Program-made: the position numbers and the translations under genes
Part shown: one piece after another, positions 2,024 through 21,853 of the stretch
Position numbering within the stretch: position 1 is the stretch's first letter
Layout of the letters: the number at the start of each line of letters is the position of its first letter
Source of the DNA: a virus
Reading direction: 5' to 3' (one strand)
Virus record (IMG/VR): IMGVR_UViG_3300048929_000518
Coordinates: 1-21,853 of that record
DNA: 21,853 bases
Notes under the pieces: generated by a model
What the model saw: the letters and a program-made list of their open reading frames with translations, nothing else
What the model was told of the DNA's origin: nothing
Databases searched by the model: none

Positions 2024-4081
2024 TCACGCCGCCAACTCCATCTTTTTCACGGGCCGCGTGTGATTGCCGGATCGCAGCCACGCGCTGAACTTGTCCGCTC
2101 CCATGTGCGTGAGACCGGTGATGCGTCTCGCATGGTCGTCTGGATAAGCGAGCTCGAGACACTCCCGCGCCTCGTCCTCGCTGGTGAAACCCATCATGCA
2201 CTTGTGCTCGTCGAACTTGCCCGTGCGCGGGTCCACCATGTCGGCGACCCAGATGTCCTGCGAGTCGCGGGCGGGACCCACGAACGCGTCCATCCACTCC
2301 ATATCGCCCTCCGCACTCCCGACTGCCGGGATGTGACCATAGTCCGCGGGCATCACGACGGCCCAGCCCGGTCCCGTTCGCGTGGACCCGGCCATGTTCT
2401 CGATCGCGACCTGGATGCCGGCCACGTGGTAGGAGGGAAGGGAGTCGTATCCTCTCGCACGTCTCCTGTCGTTGCTCGGCTTGGTTGTCGTTCCGGCCTG
2501 CCCATTCTTCGACCTGAGGTGCTGGGGATTCACGCGCGGGTTGCCGGCGTGCGGCAGCTTCTCGAGCGCCGACTGAGCATTGTTTGGGTTCTCGTGAGTG
2601 ATGTGCTCGGGATTACCCCCGTGCGCCGCGATCTCGTCGTCCCCGAGGCCGATGTCCCCGAGCTCGCCCATCAGGGGCGTCGGCTCAAGTTCGGCCTTCT
2701 TGATCATCTCATCGGTCACGTTGTCGAACCGCGAGGTGGTCTTGCTGTTCTGCTTCAGCTCCTTCATCGCAGTCGGCGTGTCGATGAGCTGAGCCTCGTG
2801 CGCCTCGATGATGGACGTGGTGTCGCGCGCACTGATCTCGGACTTCTGTCCCTCGTCGAGCTGCCACAACGGCGCGAACTGCCAGTTGAAGTCCTCCGGC
2901 AGAACGACGCCCTCCGACTGGGCCATGGCGCGCTGGAACACGTCGATCGGTCGCCGAAGCACGCGCTCCTGCTGCTGCTTGATCCCGTCGTAGTAGGTTC
3001 GCAGATCACTCTCGCCGCTCGAGTTCAGGCCGGCCGGGCTCTGGCCGAACATTCGCACCAGCGGGATCTGCAGTGTCCCGGACATCTGCTGCGCCTGCTG
3101 GAGGATCACCTCACTGATTCCCGTGAACGCGCTACTCGACTGAACGGTGATATCGTCCTTCCCATCGATGACCGTCAGTCCCTCGTTGTTCTGGAACCGA
3201 CGCACCATGTCCATCTTCTTGAGCATGGTCGCGATGCCAGCGTCCCCTCCCTGCGACATCAGGTCGGTCATGCCGTCCATCTTGTACGTGCGGAGGAACG
3301 ACTTGTAGACAAGCTGGGCCGCGCCCTGAGTGCTGCTGTCGAGTGACACCATGCGGTCGTACAGACGCTCGAACACGCTCAGTCCCCACAGATTCTCCTG
3401 AACTCGCTGCCAGTAGGGCAGGTCGACGCCGACCATGCGAAGCACGCGCGAGTAGTGAATGAGCTTACCGCGAAGGGCGGGGGCGTCGCTGTTCACGCGA
3501 TAGTGCACGGGAAGACCGATGTCCGGCCCGAATGCACTGACCAGACGATCCAGCTTGGCCTCGACCTGCCACCTGTCCAGGACCAGGAATCCCTTGAGCT
3601 GACCCCTCATCAGCGGGATGTCGCCGAGCCGCAGCGGAGTGCTGAGGTCCTGGCCGTCGATGAGCATGACCATGATCGCGCCGCCGTACAGCCGCGACCA
3701 CTTGATCGTCTCGTTCACGCATCCCCAGAAGTTGAGATTGACCTCGCACTTGCGGAGGCGGTCCATCTCGTCCGGCTGAAGCTGCGTCGTGATATCGATG
3801 CCGGCGCGCGTCATGTCGTCGGCGATGATGTCCACCGCGATACCGCCCATCCACGATCCGCGATAGATCCACTCCAGGAGCGTGCGGATGCGGGTGATCG
3901 GGTTGAAGCCATAGGTGCTCGCCGTCAGTGGATTGTCCGTCCCGATGCCGAGCTTGAGGACCGCGTTGAGGTAGCTGTCCTTCGTCGACTGGGCACCGCG
4001 CCTCTGCGAGTCGCGCGTCAGTTTTCGCTCCTCGACACCGGCCTTCGCGATGGTCGACTTCTTGATGGAGGCGCGTGCCAT
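2024..4081 (-). CDS. Phage portal protein (DUF1073/PF06381 type) fused to a C-terminal inorganic-pyrophosphatase-like domain
   Basis: The portal forms the dodecameric ring through which DNA is packaged. Residues about 40-460 carry the portal body; the most telling stretch is IPLVRMFGQSPAGLNSSGES (339-358) followed by DLRTYYDGIKQQQERVLRRP, typical of DUF1073-type portals. After a low-complexity linker (about 480-543, including KNGQAGTTTKPSNDRRRAR), residues 544-685 form a second domain: VAIENMAGSTRTG, MPADYGHIP (578-586), EGDMEWMDAFVGP (591-603) and GKFDEHKCMMGF (621-632). This is the pattern of the pyrophosphatase-like (InPase) domain of phage polyvalent and Mu-F-linked proteins, with aspartates 593 and 598 and the FDEHK motif retained. 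At 685 aa it is longer than a plain DUF1073 portal. The ATG shares one base with the upstream TGA (TGATG). Portal identity is firm; the second domain is a motif-based call. Confidence 0.92.
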   Translation of the reverse strand: MARASIKKSTIAKAGVEERKLTRDSQRRGAQSTKDSYLNAVLKLGIGTDNPLTASTYGFNPITRIRTLLEWIYRGSWMGGIAVDIIADDMTRAGIDITTQLQPDEMDRLRKCEVNLNFWGCVNETIKWSRLYGGAIMVMLIDGQDLSTPLRLGDIPLMRGQLKGFLVLDRWQVEAKLDRLVSAFGPDIGLPVHYRVNSDAPALRGKLIHYSRVLRMVGVDLPYWQRVQENLWGLSVFERLYDRMVSLDSSTQGAAQLVYKSFLRTYKMDGMTDLMSQGGDAGIATMLKKMDMVRRFQNNEGLTVIDGKDDITVQSSSAFTGISEVILQQAQQMSGTLQIPLVRMFGQSPAGLNSSGESDLRTYYDGIKQQQERVLRRPIDVFQRAMAQSEGVVLPEDFNWQFAPLWQLDEGQKSEISARDTTSIIEAHEAQLIDTPTAMKELKQNSKTTSRFDNVTDEMIKKAELEPTPLMGELGDIGLGDDEIAAHGGNPEHITHENPNNAQSALEKLPHAGNPRVNPQHLRSKNGQAGTTTKPSNDRRRARGYDSLPSYHVAGIQVAIENMAGSTRTGPGWAVVMPADYGHIPAVGSAEGDMEWMDAFVGPARDSQDIWVADMVDPRTGKFDEHKCMMGFTSEDEARECLELAYPDDHARRITGLTHMGADKFSAWLRSGNHTRPVKKMELAA

Positions 4082-13987: not shown

Positions 13988-14602
13988 TTACTTGATGGTG
14001 ATGACCTTGGCCGCGCTGGCATTGATCAGCGTGGCACTGGGCACCCCGGCCGCTAGCACCTTCTCCACGGTCTTGCCGCTGGCCTTGCGCAGCTTCTCGT
14101 ACCGCTCCCAGCGCGCGGTGTCCTTGCGGCAGGGGTTCTCCTTCGCGATCCAGGTCACGACCTGATCGCCGGCGAACTTGCTGCGCGGCGCGCGGGCCTC
14201 GCCGGTCGCCGCCTTCTTGGTCACCTTCTTCGCTGCCTTCTTGGCAGGCTTCTTCGCGGCCTTGGTCGCCTTCTTCGCCGGTTTCGCCACTGTCGTATCT
14301 CCTTCTGCTCGCGGCGGATCGGTCACGGCCGGTGCCGCCTTGGTGGACTTCTTGGACGCTGCCTTCTTGGCCGGAGCCTTTTGCGCCTTTTCCGGTGGAC
14401 TTGCAAGCGCTTTCTCGGAGCCGCCCTGATCCAGGCCGGCGCGGAACTGCTTGATCAGCTTGTCGATGTCCTTGGTGATCCGCTCGCCGACGGTGCTGAC
14501 ATCGAAGTCGACCATCAGATCCGCGGGAAGCTCGAGACCGAGGTCGATGGCGGTCGCGATCATCTCGGCCTGCTCCTGCTGCAACTGCTCAAGTGTCTTC
14601 AT
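13988..14602 (-). CDS. Histone-H1-like Lys/Ala-rich protein, 204 aa
   Basis: The ATG at 14602 (MKTLEQLQQEQAEMIATAID) follows GGAG; the longer upstream frame has no support. Three parts: an N-terminal helical domain (1-60); a central Lys/Ala/Pro-rich tail (about 65-135) with KKATKAAKKPAKKAAKKVTK, like the C-terminal tail of eukaryotic H1 and bacterial Hc1/AlgP-type proteins; and a C-terminal domain (141-204) with FAGDQVVTWIAKENPCRKDT, RWERYEKLRKASGKTVEKVL and AAGVPSATLINASAAKVITI. The basic tail should bind DNA without sequence specificity. The C-terminal domain resembles the end of the 299-aa protein at 16765-17664. Possible roles: phage DNA compaction or regulation of host DNA. It ends 28 bases before the terminator. 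Confidence 0.75.
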   Translation of the reverse strand: MKTLEQLQQEQAEMIATAIDLGLELPADLMVDFDVSTVGERITKDIDKLIKQFRAGLDQGGSEKALASPPEKAQKAPAKKAASKKSTKAAPAVTDPPRAEGDTTVAKPAKKATKAAKKPAKKAAKKVTKKAATGEARAPRSKFAGDQVVTWIAKENPCRKDTARWERYEKLRKASGKTVEKVLAAGVPSATLINASAAKVITIK

Positions 14603-14688
14603 GTGTAGTTCTCCACGTGGGGTTGGATGCGTCTCTCTGTAGCGCATCGTACTGCGTCGGCCCGTCTTGCCGGCGCAGGGTCGATGAG

Positions 14689-14802
14689 CTAGGGATACAA
14701 CTGGCGCAGGAAGATGAGAAACATTGCTGCCCACGCCCATCTCGGGTTGATGACACCCGTGGCGGAGACGATCATCATCGCGATCCAGAACTCGTGCGAC
14801 AT
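14689..14802 (-). CDS. Tiny membrane protein, 37 aa
   Basis: The ATG at 14802-14800 shares one base with the previous TGA (TGATG), and AGGAG lies six bases upstream. The product, MSHEFWIAMMIVSATGVINP then RWAWAAMFLIFLRQLYP, has two hydrophobic stretches separated by NPRW, enough for a hairpin of two short spans or one long one. Below usual length cut-offs, but the coupling and ribosome site are convincing. Function unknown. Confidence 0.6.
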   Translation of the reverse strand: MSHEFWIAMMIVSATGVINPRWAWAAMFLIFLRQLYP

Positions 14803-18116: not shown

Positions 18117-18925
18117 TCATTATCTCCCACGTACTGGGCCATGGTCTTCTTGAGCCATGCCACTGGATCTCTGAGAAGAGGGTCCGCGCCGTGAATGGGC
18201 CTCACGTACAGGACATCGTTGCCCAGCAGCATCCGCATTCGCTCCTGCCCGGTGCGCGTGGCCAGTTTCGGGCTGCGAAACGCCCAGTGACCGCCCGCGC
18301 TGTTCACGGCGTGGTTCATGCCGTACCCGAAGCGACGCGCCATGGCGGTCGCGCCGATCTGGTACGCGGCCCGCGCCAGATCCAGGGGCACCGTGTCGAT
18401 GCGCCACGCCACGGTGCCCGCGCCCATGCCAACATCCTGCGAGATGCCGGCCCACAGCGTGACCGCGCGATGCTCGACCAGCAGCCGCGCCAGCGCCAGC
18501 AGCACCACGGCGCGTCGGCCGACCACGCTCGCGTCGATGTCGGCGCTGCTGGTCAGGTCCATGTAGATGGACAGCGGGGCCGTGTCTCGCGACACCCGCT
18601 CTCGGCGACGCATGTGCTGCGGATGCCCCGCGAGAAACGCGGGGACATTGGGCATCGCTCCAACCACGTCGTCCATGTTGCGCCACGCGCTGGTGACAGG
18701 CATCTGGTCCTCGATCTCGGATAGGAACCTGTCCGAGGCCTCGACCAGCGACTGGTCCCCGAGATCGGCCTTGCGTCGCATGTCTGCGACGCTGTCGCCA
18801 CACCACGAGTCGCCATATTTCCCCATGGAGATGGAGTACTTGTCCATCAGGGGGACGATCTCGGACGCGTCCATGAGGACGTAGTGCTCCGGTCCCCACT
18901 GCGTCGTCTGCTTGCCCTGTCGCAT
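18113..18925 (-). CDS. Probable VWA-like partner protein of the AAA+ ATPase, 270 aa
   Basis: The ATG at 18925 shares one base with the ATPase stop (TGATG) and follows GGAGGG. The N-terminal 110 residues are helical and basic (AWRNMDDVVGAMPNVPAFLA then GHPQHMRRRERV). From about 114, APLSIYMDLTSSADIDASVV (116-135) is a hydrophobic strand ending in D-L-T-S-S, close to the D-x-S-x-S metal-site motif of von Willebrand A domains; a helix and strand follow (RRAVVLLALARLLVEHRAVT then LWAG). The later KLATRTGQERMRMLLGNDVLYV part fits the end of such a domain. MoxR/CobS-type ATPases are classically paired with VWA proteins (as CobS with CobT), so both motif and neighbour point the same way. The metal-site motif is imperfect. 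Confidence 0.65.
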   Translation of the reverse strand: MRQGKQTTQWGPEHYVLMDASEIVPLMDKYSISMGKYGDSWCGDSVADMRRKADLGDQSLVEASDRFLSEIEDQMPVTSAWRNMDDVVGAMPNVPAFLAGHPQHMRRRERVSRDTAPLSIYMDLTSSADIDASVVGRRAVVLLALARLLVEHRAVTLWAGISQDVGMGAGTVAWRIDTVPLDLARAAYQIGATAMARRFGYGMNHAVNSAGGHWAFRSPKLATRTGQERMRMLLGNDVLYVRPIHGADPLLRDPVAWLKKTMAQYVGDNE

Positions 18926-20040
18926 CACTTTCCCTCCACTTGTCGCCGCTGCTCGGGTCTCAGGTTCGCGAGGTAGGTCATGTCCGCCGCCTCGTCCGGA
19001 CCGTAGCCCGCCGCTATCAGTGCCGCGCCGGCCTGCGCCGCGCGGGTGTCGATCAGGACCTTGAGTCCGCACGCGCGGGCACGCAGCCGCGCGGCGCGCA
19101 CCCGCGCCAGCCACTCCGCGTTCGACACGATCGCCGACTCCAGCTCCGGGTCGATGTCCCAGTTGATGCGAACCGGGAACCGCGACAGGAACGCCGCGTC
19201 CAGCTTGGTCGCGCCGCTGTAGTTGGCGTCCGCGCCGAGTCCCCACGTGTTGGCCGTGCACACGATCACGCAGTCCTTGTGTCGCTTGACCTGCTTGTCG
19301 GGGAAGGTGGCCACGCCGTTCGCGGTGTGTGGATTGACCGCCAGCAGCGCTACCGGGTCGGAGCGATCCACCTCGTCGAAGGTGTAGATGCCGCCGTGCT
19401 CGTACGCCTCGCGGAACGGAGTGCGGTGATACTTGCCGGCCCCGTCGATGAAGCCGAGCATCTCGTGAGGGAACGAGATGGCCCCGTTGAAGTGCCACTT
19501 GAGACCGAGCGACTCGGCCAGCATCCGCGCGCCGGTGGTCTTGCCGCTGGAGGCCTCGCCCTGCAGGAAGATGCCCGGTGCGTAGCCGGTCGGAAGACGC
19601 GTGGCCGCCGCGCGTGCCAGATGCTCGAACTGCCGATGCACGGGGCCGGTCACCTTCTTCAGCTTGCCGGTCTCCGGCTGCTGGACGTGGATCTCCACCT
19701 TGCGCGGTGCCCGCGCCTCCATCTCCGCCATCACGACCTTCACGACGTCGTCGATGTTCACCGACGCCTTGCCGATCTTGGACATCACCTTGTCGGTGAT
19801 CGCGTCGATGTCCACCGGCGCGGACGCGGCCGTGACGTGGATGTCGGCCTTCTTGTGCTTGCGGTTCGCGCGCAGAATGAGACGACCGACGAAGAGCTCC
19901 TGCTTCTCGGTCAGCGGCTTGCCGCGCTTGACCCATGCGATCAGGTCCTGCGCCTTTGCCACGCTCGGCAGAATGAGTCCGGCCTTCTCCTTCTCGATCA
20001 GGATCGGGAGAACCTTCTCCAGTTCTTCGATTTGAGTCAC
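18925..20040 (-). CDS. CobS/MoxR-like AAA+ ATPase, 371 aa
   Basis: Residues 156-300 form the ATPase: Walker A GEASSGKTT (161-169), Walker B YTFDEVD (219-226), sensor-1 VIVCTANTWG (258-267) and a putative arginine finger in AFLSRFPV (283-290). The insert FPHEMLGFIDGAGKYHRTPF then REAYEHGG before Walker B is typical of CobS/MoxR ATPases, which remodel partner complexes with VWA proteins. The N-terminal 150 residues are specific: a helical region with KPLTEKQELFVGRLILRANR and a linker (AASAPVDIDAITDKVMSKIG). Start is GTG at 20040 with GGGGG upstream. Phage copies of this pair are known in other large tailed phages and their substrate is undetermined; cobalamin synthesis itself is unlikely here because no other cob gene is present. 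Confidence 0.88.
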   Translation of the reverse strand: MTQIEELEKVLPILIEKEKAGLILPSVAKAQDLIAWVKRGKPLTEKQELFVGRLILRANRKHKKADIHVTAASAPVDIDAITDKVMSKIGKASVNIDDVVKVVMAEMEARAPRKVEIHVQQPETGKLKKVTGPVHRQFEHLARAAATRLPTGYAPGIFLQGEASSGKTTGARMLAESLGLKWHFNGAISFPHEMLGFIDGAGKYHRTPFREAYEHGGIYTFDEVDRSDPVALLAVNPHTANGVATFPDKQVKRHKDCVIVCTANTWGLGADANYSGATKLDAAFLSRFPVRINWDIDPELESAIVSNAEWLARVRAARLRARACGLKVLIDTRAAQAGAALIAAGYGPDEAADMTYLANLRPEQRRQVEGK

Positions 20041-20066: not shown

Positions 20067-20111
20067 GATTGCTTCGTGGAGCGTCGCTGCGCGGCGCTCG
20101 TCGAAGAAATC
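20067..20111. repeat. Intergenic hairpin element, copy 1
   Basis: Constant arms GATTGCTTCG (20067-20076) and CGAAGAAATC (20102-20111) pair with one mismatch. Inside, GAGCGTCGC and GCGGCGCTC form a 9-bp stem with one non-Watson-Crick position. The right end overlaps the stop codon of the 30-aa gene (TGA at 20112-20110). It separates that gene from the AAA+ gene. Confidence 0.8.
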
Positions 20112-20202
20112 ACCAGCCCACGAATAGAAGGCCGAGCAGCATGGTCGCGGCCCCGGCGAACACCACCGGGGCCATCAGGCAGTAGAACTGAGTGTCGGTC
20201 AT
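20110..20202 (-). CDS. Membrane microprotein, 30 aa
   Basis: The ATG at 20202-20200 overlaps the previous TGA and has GGAGG seven bases upstream, an ideal site. The product is MTDTQFYCLMAPVVFAGAAT then MLLGLLFVGW: a 9-residue polar start and one 20-residue membrane span. Far below usual length cut-offs but as well supported as its larger neighbours. The stop codon forms the edge of hairpin copy 1. Function unknown. Confidence 0.65.
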   Translation of the reverse strand: MTDTQFYCLMAPVVFAGAATMLLGLLFVGW

Positions 20203-20477
20203 GACCGCACCTCCGTTGGGATCGCAGACTTCATGGTCTCGATCCACACCTTGAGATCGGCGCGGGCCGCGTCGTACTGCCCGCGCTTGTACTTCTTGCC
20301 GGTGTAGCGCTCGCACATGGCCAGCGCCTTGGTGCCGGTGAAGCCGCGCGTCGGCGTGATACCGGCCTTGAGAAGGCCGATCGCGCTGCTGAGCGCCGCT
20401 GCTCGAACCAACTCCACGGCGTCCGGGCCGGCGAACATGGTGCCTCCCGGACCCGTGGTGATGCTGCTCTCGCTCAC
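20199..20477 (-). CDS. 92-aa helical protein of unknown function
   Basis: The GTG at 20477 overlaps the previous TGA (GTGA). The protein has a disordered start (MSESSITTGPGGTMFAGPDA) then helices AVELVRAAALSSAIGLLKAG, TGTKALAMCERYTGKKYKRG and QYDAARADLKVWIETMKSA. The RYTGKKYKRGQYDAARADL segment is reminiscent of small uncharacterised proteins found in many phages. It is basic and alpha-helical, perhaps a nucleic acid or protein adaptor. No catalytic motif. Confidence 0.7.
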   Translation of the reverse strand: MSESSITTGPGGTMFAGPDAVELVRAAALSSAIGLLKAGITPTRGFTGTKALAMCERYTGKKYKRGQYDAARADLKVWIETMKSAIPTEVRS

Positions 20478-20683
20478 GCCGACACCCGCACGAGCTCGTT
20501 GAGAACGCAGAAGCGCACGGTCGAGATGGCAGCGCCGCGCCCGAGGGCGAGCTCGACCCGCTTGGACTTGAGCACGTGGTTGATGCGCTCGTGACGCCCG
20601 CTGCCCTCGCGGGCCGGATTGACCGCGCCCTTGACGGGGATGATCTTCATCTCGGGCGCGATTGCGATGGTGGACTTGGCCAT
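20474..20683 (-). CDS. 69-aa basic protein of unknown function
   Basis: The ATG at 20683 follows AGGAG six bases upstream. The product MAKSTIAIAPEMKIIPVKGA continues VNPAREGSGRHERINHVLKS then KRVELALGRGAAISTVRFCV. The segment GSGRHERINHVLKSKRVELA is basic and helical and NPAREGSGRHERIN is a distinctive motif, but I cannot assign a family. A short hairpin (20709-20734) lies in its leader. Confidence 0.7.
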   Translation of the reverse strand: MAKSTIAIAPEMKIIPVKGAVNPAREGSGRHERINHVLKSKRVELALGRGAAISTVRFCVLNELVRVSA

Positions 20684-20708
20684 GATGGTCTCCTGTTGTT
20701 GCCGTGAG

Positions 20709-20734
20709 TTGACAGTGGCGAATGCCACCGTCAA
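20709..20734 (-). promoter_or_regulatory. Leader hairpin, 11-bp stem
   Basis: On the minus strand TTGACGGTGGC (20734-20724), loop ATTC, GCCACTGTCAA (20719-20709) gives ten Watson-Crick pairs and one G-U; the plus strand would have an A-C mismatch there. It lies between hairpin copy 2 and the ribosome site of the 69-aa gene, consistent with a leftward RNA structure. Confidence 0.5.
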
Positions 20735-20741
20735 GAAGCGT

Positions 20742-20784
20742 GATTGCTTCGTGGAGGGTCGCGTGCGGCCCTCGTCGAAGAAAT
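20742..20784. repeat. Intergenic hairpin element, copy 2
   Basis: Arms GATTGCTTCG (20742-20751) and CGAAGAAAT (20776-20784). The inner stem is GAGGGTCGC with GCGGCCCTC: relative to copy 1, one pair has changed on both sides (C-G to G-C). It follows the TAG of the 77-aa gene by four bases. Confidence 0.8.
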
Positions 20785-20788
20785 TCGC

Positions 20789-21022
20789 CTAGTCGTTGTA
20801 GACGCGGAGCTCGATGCAGCCCGCGCCCTGCCAGTAGTCGACCCAGAGCAGGTCACCGTCGCGCACCTCGCGACGCTGGGCCAGCAGCATGATGCCGTTG
20901 CCCAGAGTGGTCTCCATGGTGCGCGGCCACTCGCCCGGCCGGAGGCCAATGTCGGAGGCCTCGACCGAGAACTTGTGCGGCTCGTACTCGTGCAGCCCGC
21001 ACGTATCGCGATCGATCCTCAC
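20789..21022 (-). CDS. 77-aa protein of unknown function
   Basis: The GTG at 21022-21020 overlaps the previous TGA (GTGA) and has GGAGG five bases upstream. The protein opens MRIDRDTCGLHEYEPHKFSV and has ASDIGLRPGEWPRTMETTLG then NGIMLLAQRREVRDGDLLWV, ending DYWQGAGCIELRVYND. Strand-rich with a Gly/Arg/Asp pattern (RPGEWP...LGNG...R-D-G-D) like a small beta barrel; a Cys occurs near each end. Function unknown. It is the gene carried between hairpin copies 2 and 3, together with two smaller ones. Confidence 0.7.
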   Translation of the reverse strand: MRIDRDTCGLHEYEPHKFSVEASDIGLRPGEWPRTMETTLGNGIMLLAQRREVRDGDLLWVDYWQGAGCIELRVYND

Positions 21023-21189
21023 TTGCCCCTCCTCTTCACCGGCTTCTTGGCCGGCTTGGGCAAGCGCTTGGTCACCGCCTTCTTGAAGGCCGCGAGGACC
21101 TGCTCGACCTCCGCCACCTTGGCGTCGACCGCCGCACGCTGCGTCGATGGCATGTCCACGAAGGGACTCTTGGGAAGAGGCGTACTCAC
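21019..21189 (-). CDS. Small Lys/Pro-rich basic protein, 56 aa
   Basis: GTGA overlaps at both ends and AGGAG six bases upstream of the GTG at 21189. The product MSTPLPKSPFVDMPSTQRAA continues VDAKVAEVEQVLAAFKKAVT and ends KRLPKPAKKPVKRRGK. A helix is followed by a Lys/Pro/Ala tail resembling the tail of the H1-like protein at 13988. Such a tail should bind DNA or RNA non-specifically. Function otherwise unknown. Confidence 0.65.
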   Translation of the reverse strand: MSTPLPKSPFVDMPSTQRAAVDAKVAEVEQVLAAFKKAVTKRLPKPAKKPVKRRGK

Positions 21190-21254
21190 TTGCCGCTCCT
21201 GTACTTCTGGAGCTCCAGCTTGCGAAGCAGGATGATGATGTGATGCGGTAGCAT
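21186..21254 (-). CDS. Possible 22-aa micropeptide
   Basis: ATG at 21254-21252 with GAGG five bases upstream; its TGA overlaps the next GTG (GTGA). The product MLPHHIIILLRKLELQKYRS then GK has a short hydrophobic patch and a basic end. It could be a genuine microprotein or simply a leader that delivers ribosomes to the coupled 56-aa gene. Supported only by coupling and ribosome site. Confidence 0.4.
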   Translation of the reverse strand: MLPHHIIILLRKLELQKYRSGK

Positions 21255-21278
21255 TTGAACCTCACTGGTTGGAAGCGT

Positions 21279-21322
21279 GATTGCTTCGTGGAGCGCCGCG
21301 TGCGGCGCTCGTCGAAGAAATC
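21279..21322. repeat. Intergenic hairpin element, copy 3
   Basis: Arms GATTGCTTCG (21279-21288) and CGAAGAAATC (21313-21322); inner stem GAGCGCCGC with GCGGCGCTC, 9 perfect pairs. The right end overlaps the TGA (21323-21321) of the 68-aa gene. The left flank GAAGCGT is shared with copy 2. Confidence 0.8.
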
Positions 21323-21527
21323 AGGCAGGTTGTCCCGGAAATCGCACAATTTTCTCGAGACGAACCATCTGCTTCTCGACACGGGCGATCTTGGCGAGGA
21401 TCTTATCCTCGGCATTGGTTATCTCGCCATAGGCGGGACTGTTCTCAAATTCCCGGCTAAGACGCTTGTGATCACGACGCAGCTCAGCGCAGTACGCGCG
21501 CAACTCTTTTTCGTAAAAGAAAGCCAT
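21321..21527 (-). CDS. Coiled-coil protein, 68 aa
   Basis: The ATG at 21527 follows GAGGAGGTTAAG, which begins directly after hairpin copy 4. The protein MAFFYEKELRAYCAELRRDH continues KRLSREFENSPAYGEITNAE and DKILAKIARVEKQMVRLEKI. Two charged helices with heptad-like leucines form a likely antiparallel coiled coil, ending VRFPGQPA. Function unknown. The neighbouring 73-aa protein is also coiled coil, so the two may interact. Confidence 0.7.
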   Translation of the reverse strand: MAFFYEKELRAYCAELRRDHKRLSREFENSPAYGEITNAEDKILAKIARVEKQMVRLEKIVRFPGQPA

Positions 21528-21539
21528 CTTAACCTCCTC

Positions 21540-21584
21540 GATTGCTTCGTGCTGCGCGGCATGCCGCGCAGTGTCGAAGAAATC
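21540..21584. repeat. Intergenic hairpin element, copy 4
   Basis: Arms GATTGCTTCG (21540-21549) and CGAAGAAATC (21575-21584) as in copies 1 and 3, but the inner stem is different: CTGCGCGGC with GCCGCGCAG, 9 perfect pairs. The right end overlaps the TGA (21585-21583) of the 73-aa gene. Confidence 0.8.
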
Positions 21585-21804
21585 AGACTGGAAGTCTGCT
21601 TCGAATGTGCTCGGGCAATTTCTCGCCCATCGAATTTTCAAGCTGGCGCACTAGGTGGCCAATGCGCCGCTCAGTATTCGCCATGCTGCGCACGGTTTTT
21701 GCATAACGCGCTAACTTGGCGCGTTGCTCTTGCTGTTCTGGTGTACCATCACGCGCCTCGCGCAGTGCGCGCAACCTCGCATTTTTCTCGGCTATCGTTT
21801 CCAT
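21583..21804 (-). CDS. Coiled-coil protein, 73 aa
   Basis: The ATG at 21804 has GAGGAG six bases upstream. The protein METIAEKNARLRALREARDG, then TPEQQEQRAKLARYAKTVRS, then MANTERRIGHLVRQLENSMG is nearly all charged helix with coiled-coil character, ending EKLPEHIRSRLPV. It is the most upstream gene seen in the leftward accessory operon; its stop codon forms the edge of hairpin copy 4. Function unknown. Confidence 0.7.
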   Translation of the reverse strand: METIAEKNARLRALREARDGTPEQQEQRAKLARYAKTVRSMANTERRIGHLVRQLENSMGEKLPEHIRSRLPV

Positions 21805-21830
21805 TGTTGTCTCCTCGGTGCCAACGCCAT

Positions 21831-21851
21831 GGGGCCGGCACTGCCGGCCCC
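21831..21851. repeat. Perfect 9-bp hairpin at the window edge
   Basis: GGGGCCGGC (21831-21839) and GCCGGCCCC (21843-21851) around a 3-base loop. No T-run follows on the minus strand; the plus-strand flank is cut off by the window. On the minus strand its core CCGGCAGTGCCGG resembles the stem-loop of the terminator at 13932-13960, so it may be a terminator of a converging or upstream unit. Confidence 0.5.
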
Positions 21852-21853
21852 GT

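Follow-up and report, generated by a model that had tools for sequence, protein, structure and literature searches.

A repeated hairpin beside the stop codons of small phage genes has a third pairing segment and may act as an mRNA switch

We describe a family of imperfect hairpins, absent from Rfam, that lie between small genes in the operons of many uncultured phages and mostly carry, in addition to their 2 arms, a third segment that is complementary to the second arm. In the sense of the genes the order of parts is as follows: the stop codon of the preceding gene in or beside arm A, which is about 10 nt long and holds or touches the stop; an AC(N) loop; a GC stem, B, of 6–10 pairs with a short loop of its own; an NA loop; arm A'; and, in most cases, the third segment, A''. 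We propose, with a confidence that we would place at the midpoint of the scale, that the element is an intercistronic switch in the mRNA and that the ribosome standing on the stop codon before it determines its state. The collection on which this rests holds 46 elements from 30 sources, nearly all of them phage contigs and one a Bradyrhizobium genome; the elements are related, and the counts given below are not counts of independent events.

The element was recognized in a virus fragment from IMG/VR of 21,853 bases, analysed as a whole and referred to here as the window, in which the genes run leftward and include the portal and terminase genes of a tailed phage. The features needed for the argument are these, all on the minus strand:

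21583–21804, minus: small gene A, 73 aa; it precedes copy 4, which its TGA overlaps
21540–21584, minus: element copy 4, inner-stem type II; ACA loop, stem CTGCGCGGC/GCCGCGCAG; no 5-nt A'' found
21321–21527, minus: small gene B, 68 aa; it lies between copies 4 and 3, the latter overlapped by its TGA
21279–21322, minus: element copy 3, stem B GAGCGCCGC/GCGGCGCTC
21272–21276, minus: A'' of copy 3, GCTTC
21186–21254, minus: gene C, a 22-aa micro-ORF (MLPHHIIILLRKLELQKYRSGK), downstream of copy 3
20789–21022, minus: small gene D, 77 aa, presumed GTG start, upstream of copy 2; its TAG lies 3 nt before the hairpin
20742–20785, minus: element copy 2, stem B GAGGGCCGC/GCGACCCTC
20735–20739, minus: A'' of copy 2, GCTTC, able to pair with GAAGC of A'
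20474–20683, minus: small gene E, ATG start read from the sequence, downstream of copy 2
20199–20477, minus: small gene F, 92 aa; its homologue in phage contig G019 lies directly behind an element
20110–20202, minus: small gene G, 30 aa; it precedes copy 1, which its TGA overlaps
20067–20111, minus: element copy 1, arms A/A' GATTTCTTCG / CGAAGCAATC, stem B GAGCGCCGC/GCGACGCTC; no A'' found
18925–20040, minus: AAA-type ATPase gene, downstream of copy 1
14689–14802, minus: 37-aa gene; its TAG forms the first three bases of copy 5
14640–14691, minus: element copy 5; arm A, TAGCTCATCG, contains the TAG stop; stem B CTGCGCCGGC/GCCGACGCAG, A' CGATGCGCTA
14626–14631, minus: A'' of copy 5, CGCATC, which pairs with GATGCG of A'
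13988–14602, minus: 204-aa gene, lysine/alanine rich, downstream of copy 5

Some other features of the window may be recorded here. The 22-codon frame of gene C may encode a real micro-protein, and look-alikes of it were seen in 2 other phage contigs, G010 (MTRKQILILLRKQELLSYRSGK) and G017 (MSRKQIIALIRKLELQRYRNGK), in both cases near an element. The portal protein (2024–4081, minus) has a C-terminal inorganic-pyrophosphatase-like domain, PF18823. After copy 2 and before gene E there is a second strong hairpin (20703–20733, minus; TTGACGGTGGC ATTC GCCACTGTCAA), and a GC-rich inverted repeat at 21826–21853 reaches the end of the window, which may cut it.

The initial annotation had placed 4 hairpins in the cluster from 20067 to 21584, where all surrounding genes read leftwards, and had described 3 of them as overlapping the preceding stop codon. 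We found the hairpins at 20067–20111, 20742–20785, 21279–21322 and 21540–21584, each 44–45 nt long and on the minus strand in the gene sense; the TGA of the preceding gene shares its GA with the start of copies 1, 3 and 4, and copy 2 begins 3 nt past a TAG. Each of the 4 hairpins is followed by the next gene's ribosome-binding site and start. Hairpins of this strength were absent, or nearly so, from shuffled sequence. Other details of that description needed amendment. The length of 43–45 nt is correct for the whole element and not for the distance between the arms, since a search with a gap of 35–60 nt finds nothing. The outer arms are constant within the cluster but not between phages or in copy 5, where they change with compensation; even within the cluster, copy 2 lacks the outermost pair because its start reads AATTTC. 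Similarly, the 2x2 internal loop does not extend to copy 4, whose loop is 3x2 (ACA/CA). Two features are additional to what had been noticed before: copy 5, at 14640–14691, and a third segment past the hairpin that takes part in pairing. A C-A mismatch at position 6 of stem B recurs in 6 elements from 4 sources, in stems of differing sequence (window 20067–20111, 20742–20785 and 14640–14691; loci L338, L352 and L368).

A covariance model built from the 4 copies alone, as the initial annotation had suggested, recovered copy 5 (E 2.6e-5) together with elements from other phages at E values down to 7e-15: contig G017 at that value, G016 twice, then G010, G020, G019, copy 5 and weaker matches. On a second contig set the same model matched 29 places, one of them on the antisense strand. 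A structural descriptor carrying no sequence rule, applied to both strands of 1.09 Mb, gave 61 matches as compared with 3 in shuffled sequence, and a scan with loop sequence rules gave 55 unique matches as compared with 10, of which the 46 elements in 30 sources were retained; such searches favour elements that obey the rule, and AC and A in the loop were a condition of entry to the final curated set. When nothing but the loop and the inner core (CGACACTGCG ... CGCAGCACG) was specified, the search gave 34 viral DNA stretches, 29 of them distinct and about 24 of these resembling full members. The outer arms formed no part of that search, and the next 8 outer positions paired in 76% of cases in register and in 36–41% when slid by 1–3 nt. 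Matches to our model R1 below about 30 bits were accepted only if supported by A'', a stop codon or the descriptor; bacterial loci, which reach 29 bits with R1, are an unfair negative control, because a pattern derived from the element itself had served to choose them.

The nearest relatives of the window itself may have escaped the searches. No Rfam family matched above its curated threshold, and the matches below threshold look like chance; searching by sequence gave nothing above chance in plasmids or among 50,697 deposited phage records; the exact arms of the 4 copies had 10 matches in IMG/VR, all chance occurrences within genes; and in one viral scan there were, among the matches listed, no members beyond one contig already known. 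In bacterial genomes the element is rare. The type I inner-stem pattern had 99 matches there, none a full hairpin, and the type II pattern occurred in 2 of 392 and 2 of 397 genomes (one family and order). One of the 2 Bradyrhizobium-family cases matches viral contig L344 at 100% over 3,030 bases and is probably a prophage; our term "Bradyrhizobium-type" for the corresponding phages is taken from this one matching bacterial genome and is to be read as provisional. At 27029–27111 of contig G019 (L312), two tandem elements appear to share an arm, and a single segment could then pair with either neighbour. Intergenic hairpins at G010 23871–23918 and G017 63727–63767 have a like inner stem (GAGCGCC...), unrelated outer arms and no A''; these are possibly decayed or different elements.

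Across the family the 2 arms vary with their pairing kept, with compensated changes between A and A' at position 1 (GC/CG/AT), position 3 (TA/CG), position 4 (TA/AT) and position 5 (CG/UG/UA), and the sequence of stem B is free to vary while remaining paired. In G017, for example, 3 copies have a single A'–A'' sequence, and 2 of them also the same arm A, with 3 different stems. Against two of the refuting conditions set out in the initial annotation, complementarity was retained in the further copies, and the copies lie between genes, not confined to conserved coding sequence.

In 31 of the 46 elements (23 sources), positions 2–6 of A' are perfectly complementary to an A'' lying 4–15 nt downstream, mostly with a loop of 4–6 nt. 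Shuffling the downstream sequence gave a mean of 1.1 such cases and a maximum of 5 in 500 shuffles; swapping A' between elements gave a mean of 1.2 and a maximum of 3; and moving the test stretch of A' by a single base reduced the count to 6 or less, so that the complementarity is specific to the register. Tests on single elements are weak by themselves (2 of 22 at p 0.05), and the case rests on this pooled, register-specific test. From phage to phage A, A' and A'' change together, the A'/A'' pairs being GATGC/GCATC, GAAGC/GCTTC, GGAGC/GCTCC and GGAGT/ACTCC, with GGTGC/GCACC and CTTGC/GCAAG found outside the 46-element set. A full-length A'' is missing from 15 of the 46, including copies 1 and 4 of the window and the whole sub-group with GGAAC/GAAAC arms.

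The alternative pairing may also give a reason for an imperfection in the first one. In 30 of the 31 elements with A'', the A:A' helix is defective at position 5 or 6, where A':A'' has a Watson-Crick pair. The conserved mismatch remarked on in the initial annotation may therefore have a reason, because the same A' base is Watson-Crick paired in the alternative helix; it may weaken one fold in favour of the other.

Folding calculations and the position of the stop codon are consistent with an exchange of partners. The fold in which A pairs with A' (S1) is the free minimum in 34 of the 46 elements. When A and the loop were held unpaired, A' paired downstream in 41 of 46 (27.6 when the sequence beyond it was shuffled), and the median cost of the change was 3.9 kcal/mol; the next ribosome-binding site usually lies outside the stretch covered by A''. 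Among the 41 elements with a clear upstream reading frame, the distance from the first stop base to the start of stem B is 13 nt in 22 and 12–15 nt in 32, a spacing that depends on arm length too, the stop being part of arm A. Judged by ribosome toeprints, this would be where a ribosome whose A site holds the stop codon has its front edge. The position of the stop codon relative to the stem speaks for the gene-sense strand as the folding strand. The initial annotation had left the strand unsettled, and wobble pairs alone do not in fact decide it: in the sense strand there are G-U pairs in A:A' and in B, and also A-C oppositions (G-T in the antisense strand) at position 8 and at position 6 of B.

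Because of the folding results and the stop-to-B spacing, we interpret the element as a switch in the mRNA that responds to termination at the upstream gene. With no ribosome at the stop codon, A would pair with A' around stem B to give one long hairpin (S1). A ribosome at the stop would cover A and the loop and leave B uncovered; since it would cover A but not B, A' would be freed to pair with A'' just downstream (S2), giving hairpin B followed by hairpin A':A''. A cut in the short linker between B and A' would then leave a hairpin on each side. The S1 fold, the presence and covariation of A'', the repair of the S1 defect in S2 and the stop-to-B distance are computed; that the terminating ribosome is the toggle, and that the start of B sits at its front edge, we infer from them. 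The most likely candidate output, on this model, would be to tie translation of the upstream gene to processing or stability of the intergenic mRNA, or to the start of the downstream gene. Of the 3 options raised in the initial annotation (gene-cassette exchange, mRNA element, protein-binding RNA), the mRNA element is accordingly the one best supported, by the alternative pairing, the fixed stop-to-stem distance and the location before the next ribosome-binding site.

An mRNA element need not be a switch. The hairpin could be a static processing or stability signal, such as an RNase III site or a block to 3' exonucleases of the kind found between T7 genes, in which only A:A' and B matter and A'' is a by-product. 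A helix of about 20 bp with an internal loop, placed between operon genes with no promoter or terminator using the stem, would suit this role, as would the predominance of S1 as predicted minimum in 34 of 46. However, the occurrence of A'' in 31 of 46 elements and the repair in S2 of S1 defects are left unexplained, and the loop and arm sequences are more conserved than a double-strand nuclease requires; we judge the static signal rather unlikely. There is less to be said for a hairpin that stalls or slows the terminating ribosome and so lowers expression of the upstream gene, as bacterial REP elements no more than 15 nt from a stop codon are reported to do. The start of B 12–15 nt from the stop and the REP precedent (PMC12306157) agree with it, but a simple stall requires neither A'' nor a fixed defect, and the elements are unlike REPs in not being a chromosomal repeat, so that we rate it as improbable.

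Gene content around the elements bears on a further explanation, namely, that the hairpin is a DNA-level site at which small genes are swapped as gene-plus-hairpin units. Five related phage contigs of the Bradyrhizobium type have the upstream gene and the hairpin in common, and in 9 of 10 pairs their downstream genes are different; the sharing of downstream genes among these phages partly reflects lysine-rich composition, and we have left it out of the argument. Hairpins also occupy corresponding positions next to gene C and next to the ATPase gene in the window phage and in G010, with arms that differ between the two phages. These sites fit gene-plus-hairpin units in a comparison that covered element borders only, and small phage genes swap at many borders. 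Alignment of the related phages, a check named in the initial annotation, thus bore out the change in downstream gene content, but not its location: the blocks of similarity stop about 28–41 nt past the hairpin, and not within it or at its boundary. The earlier cassette option has some support in that the hairpin stays with its upstream gene; there is no attC core and no evidence of recombination at the hairpin itself, and a DNA site would explain neither the stop-codon spacing nor A''. We give the exchange site only a slim chance. That an RNA-binding protein of phage or host recognizes the element, contacting the conserved AC(N)/NA internal loop, is to our minds equally doubtful, for although that loop was mostly returned too by the descriptor search and the covariance model, neither of which demands it, the arms and inner stem vary, no candidate protein was identified and A'' is not accounted for.

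The proposal of a termination-set switch makes a clear prediction: A' should swap partners when a ribosome occupies the stop codon. Phage genomes are crowded with uncharacterized short genes arranged in long operons, and how these are kept separate on one mRNA is poorly known; the element provides a searchable RNA marker at the borders of such genes. If the proposal is true, a dispersed switch that reads ribosomes would be a routine part of phage operon design. The broader claim, of a widespread phage-borne class of RNA switch that senses the preceding termination, resets intergenic folding, occurs several times per genome, gives each small gene its own stop-codon sensor and is traded between phages with that gene, we put forward only tentatively and think less likely than its converse. 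Ribosomes that block or unwind hairpins and thereby couple neighbouring genes are well known (PMC12548453), and the switch idea rests on such behaviour; the two-way stop-codon hairpin itself is undescribed in the papers searched, where we found no dispersed phage element of this build.

Several known systems share features with the element. Integron attC sites resemble it in having an imperfect hairpin after each gene, with constant ends and a variable middle. Sites of that class carry core sequences of the type GTTRRRY / RYYYAAC at their ends; the elements have no such core, their arms being GATTTCTTCG / CGAAGCAATC in copies 1, 3 and 4, AATTTCTTCG in copy 2 and TAGCTCATCG / CGATGCGCTA in copy 5. 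The PeSLs of T4-type phages are likewise repeated hairpins between small exchangeable genes. They differ in that the elements have neither a sigma-70-like promoter nor a U-run terminator on their stems: a promoter test restricted to sigma-70-like sequences found 0 in the region, and none of the terminator-like sites has an element for its stem. PeSL sequences are presumably unrelated to ours. Nor are the elements intrinsic terminators, as no U run follows their stems.

REP/BIME sequences are repeated intercistronic imperfect palindromes close after stop codons, and an effect on translation is reported for some bacterial REP hairpins that stand no more than 15 nt from a stop codon (PMC12306157), a position that the elements share. 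In contrast to these, the elements are phage-borne, have A'', and by exact patterns form no dispersed chromosomal repeat in bacteria (99 matches in bacterial contigs without a full hairpin; type II in 2 of 392 and 2 of 397 genomes). The ESAS of cluster K mycobacteriophages are attached to a 13-bp start-site repeat, SAS (GGGATAGGAGCCC), at the downstream start (PMC3203893). They too are repeated inverted repeats before small phage genes, with arms that differ between sub-clusters, but the elements are attached to the upstream stop codon and have A''; the 13-bp GGGATAGGAGCCC did not occur in the stretches inspected between elements and gene starts.

The trp- and erm-type attenuators operate through mutually exclusive RNA pairings, one segment of which is masked by a ribosome. 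Two mutually exclusive helices sharing one strand were found by computation in 31 of the 46 elements, and the masked segment would, under our proposal, be A. The element differs from attenuators in that its toggle would be termination at an ordinary upstream gene, in that there are several copies per phage, and in that the downstream ribosome-binding site usually lies outside the pairing.
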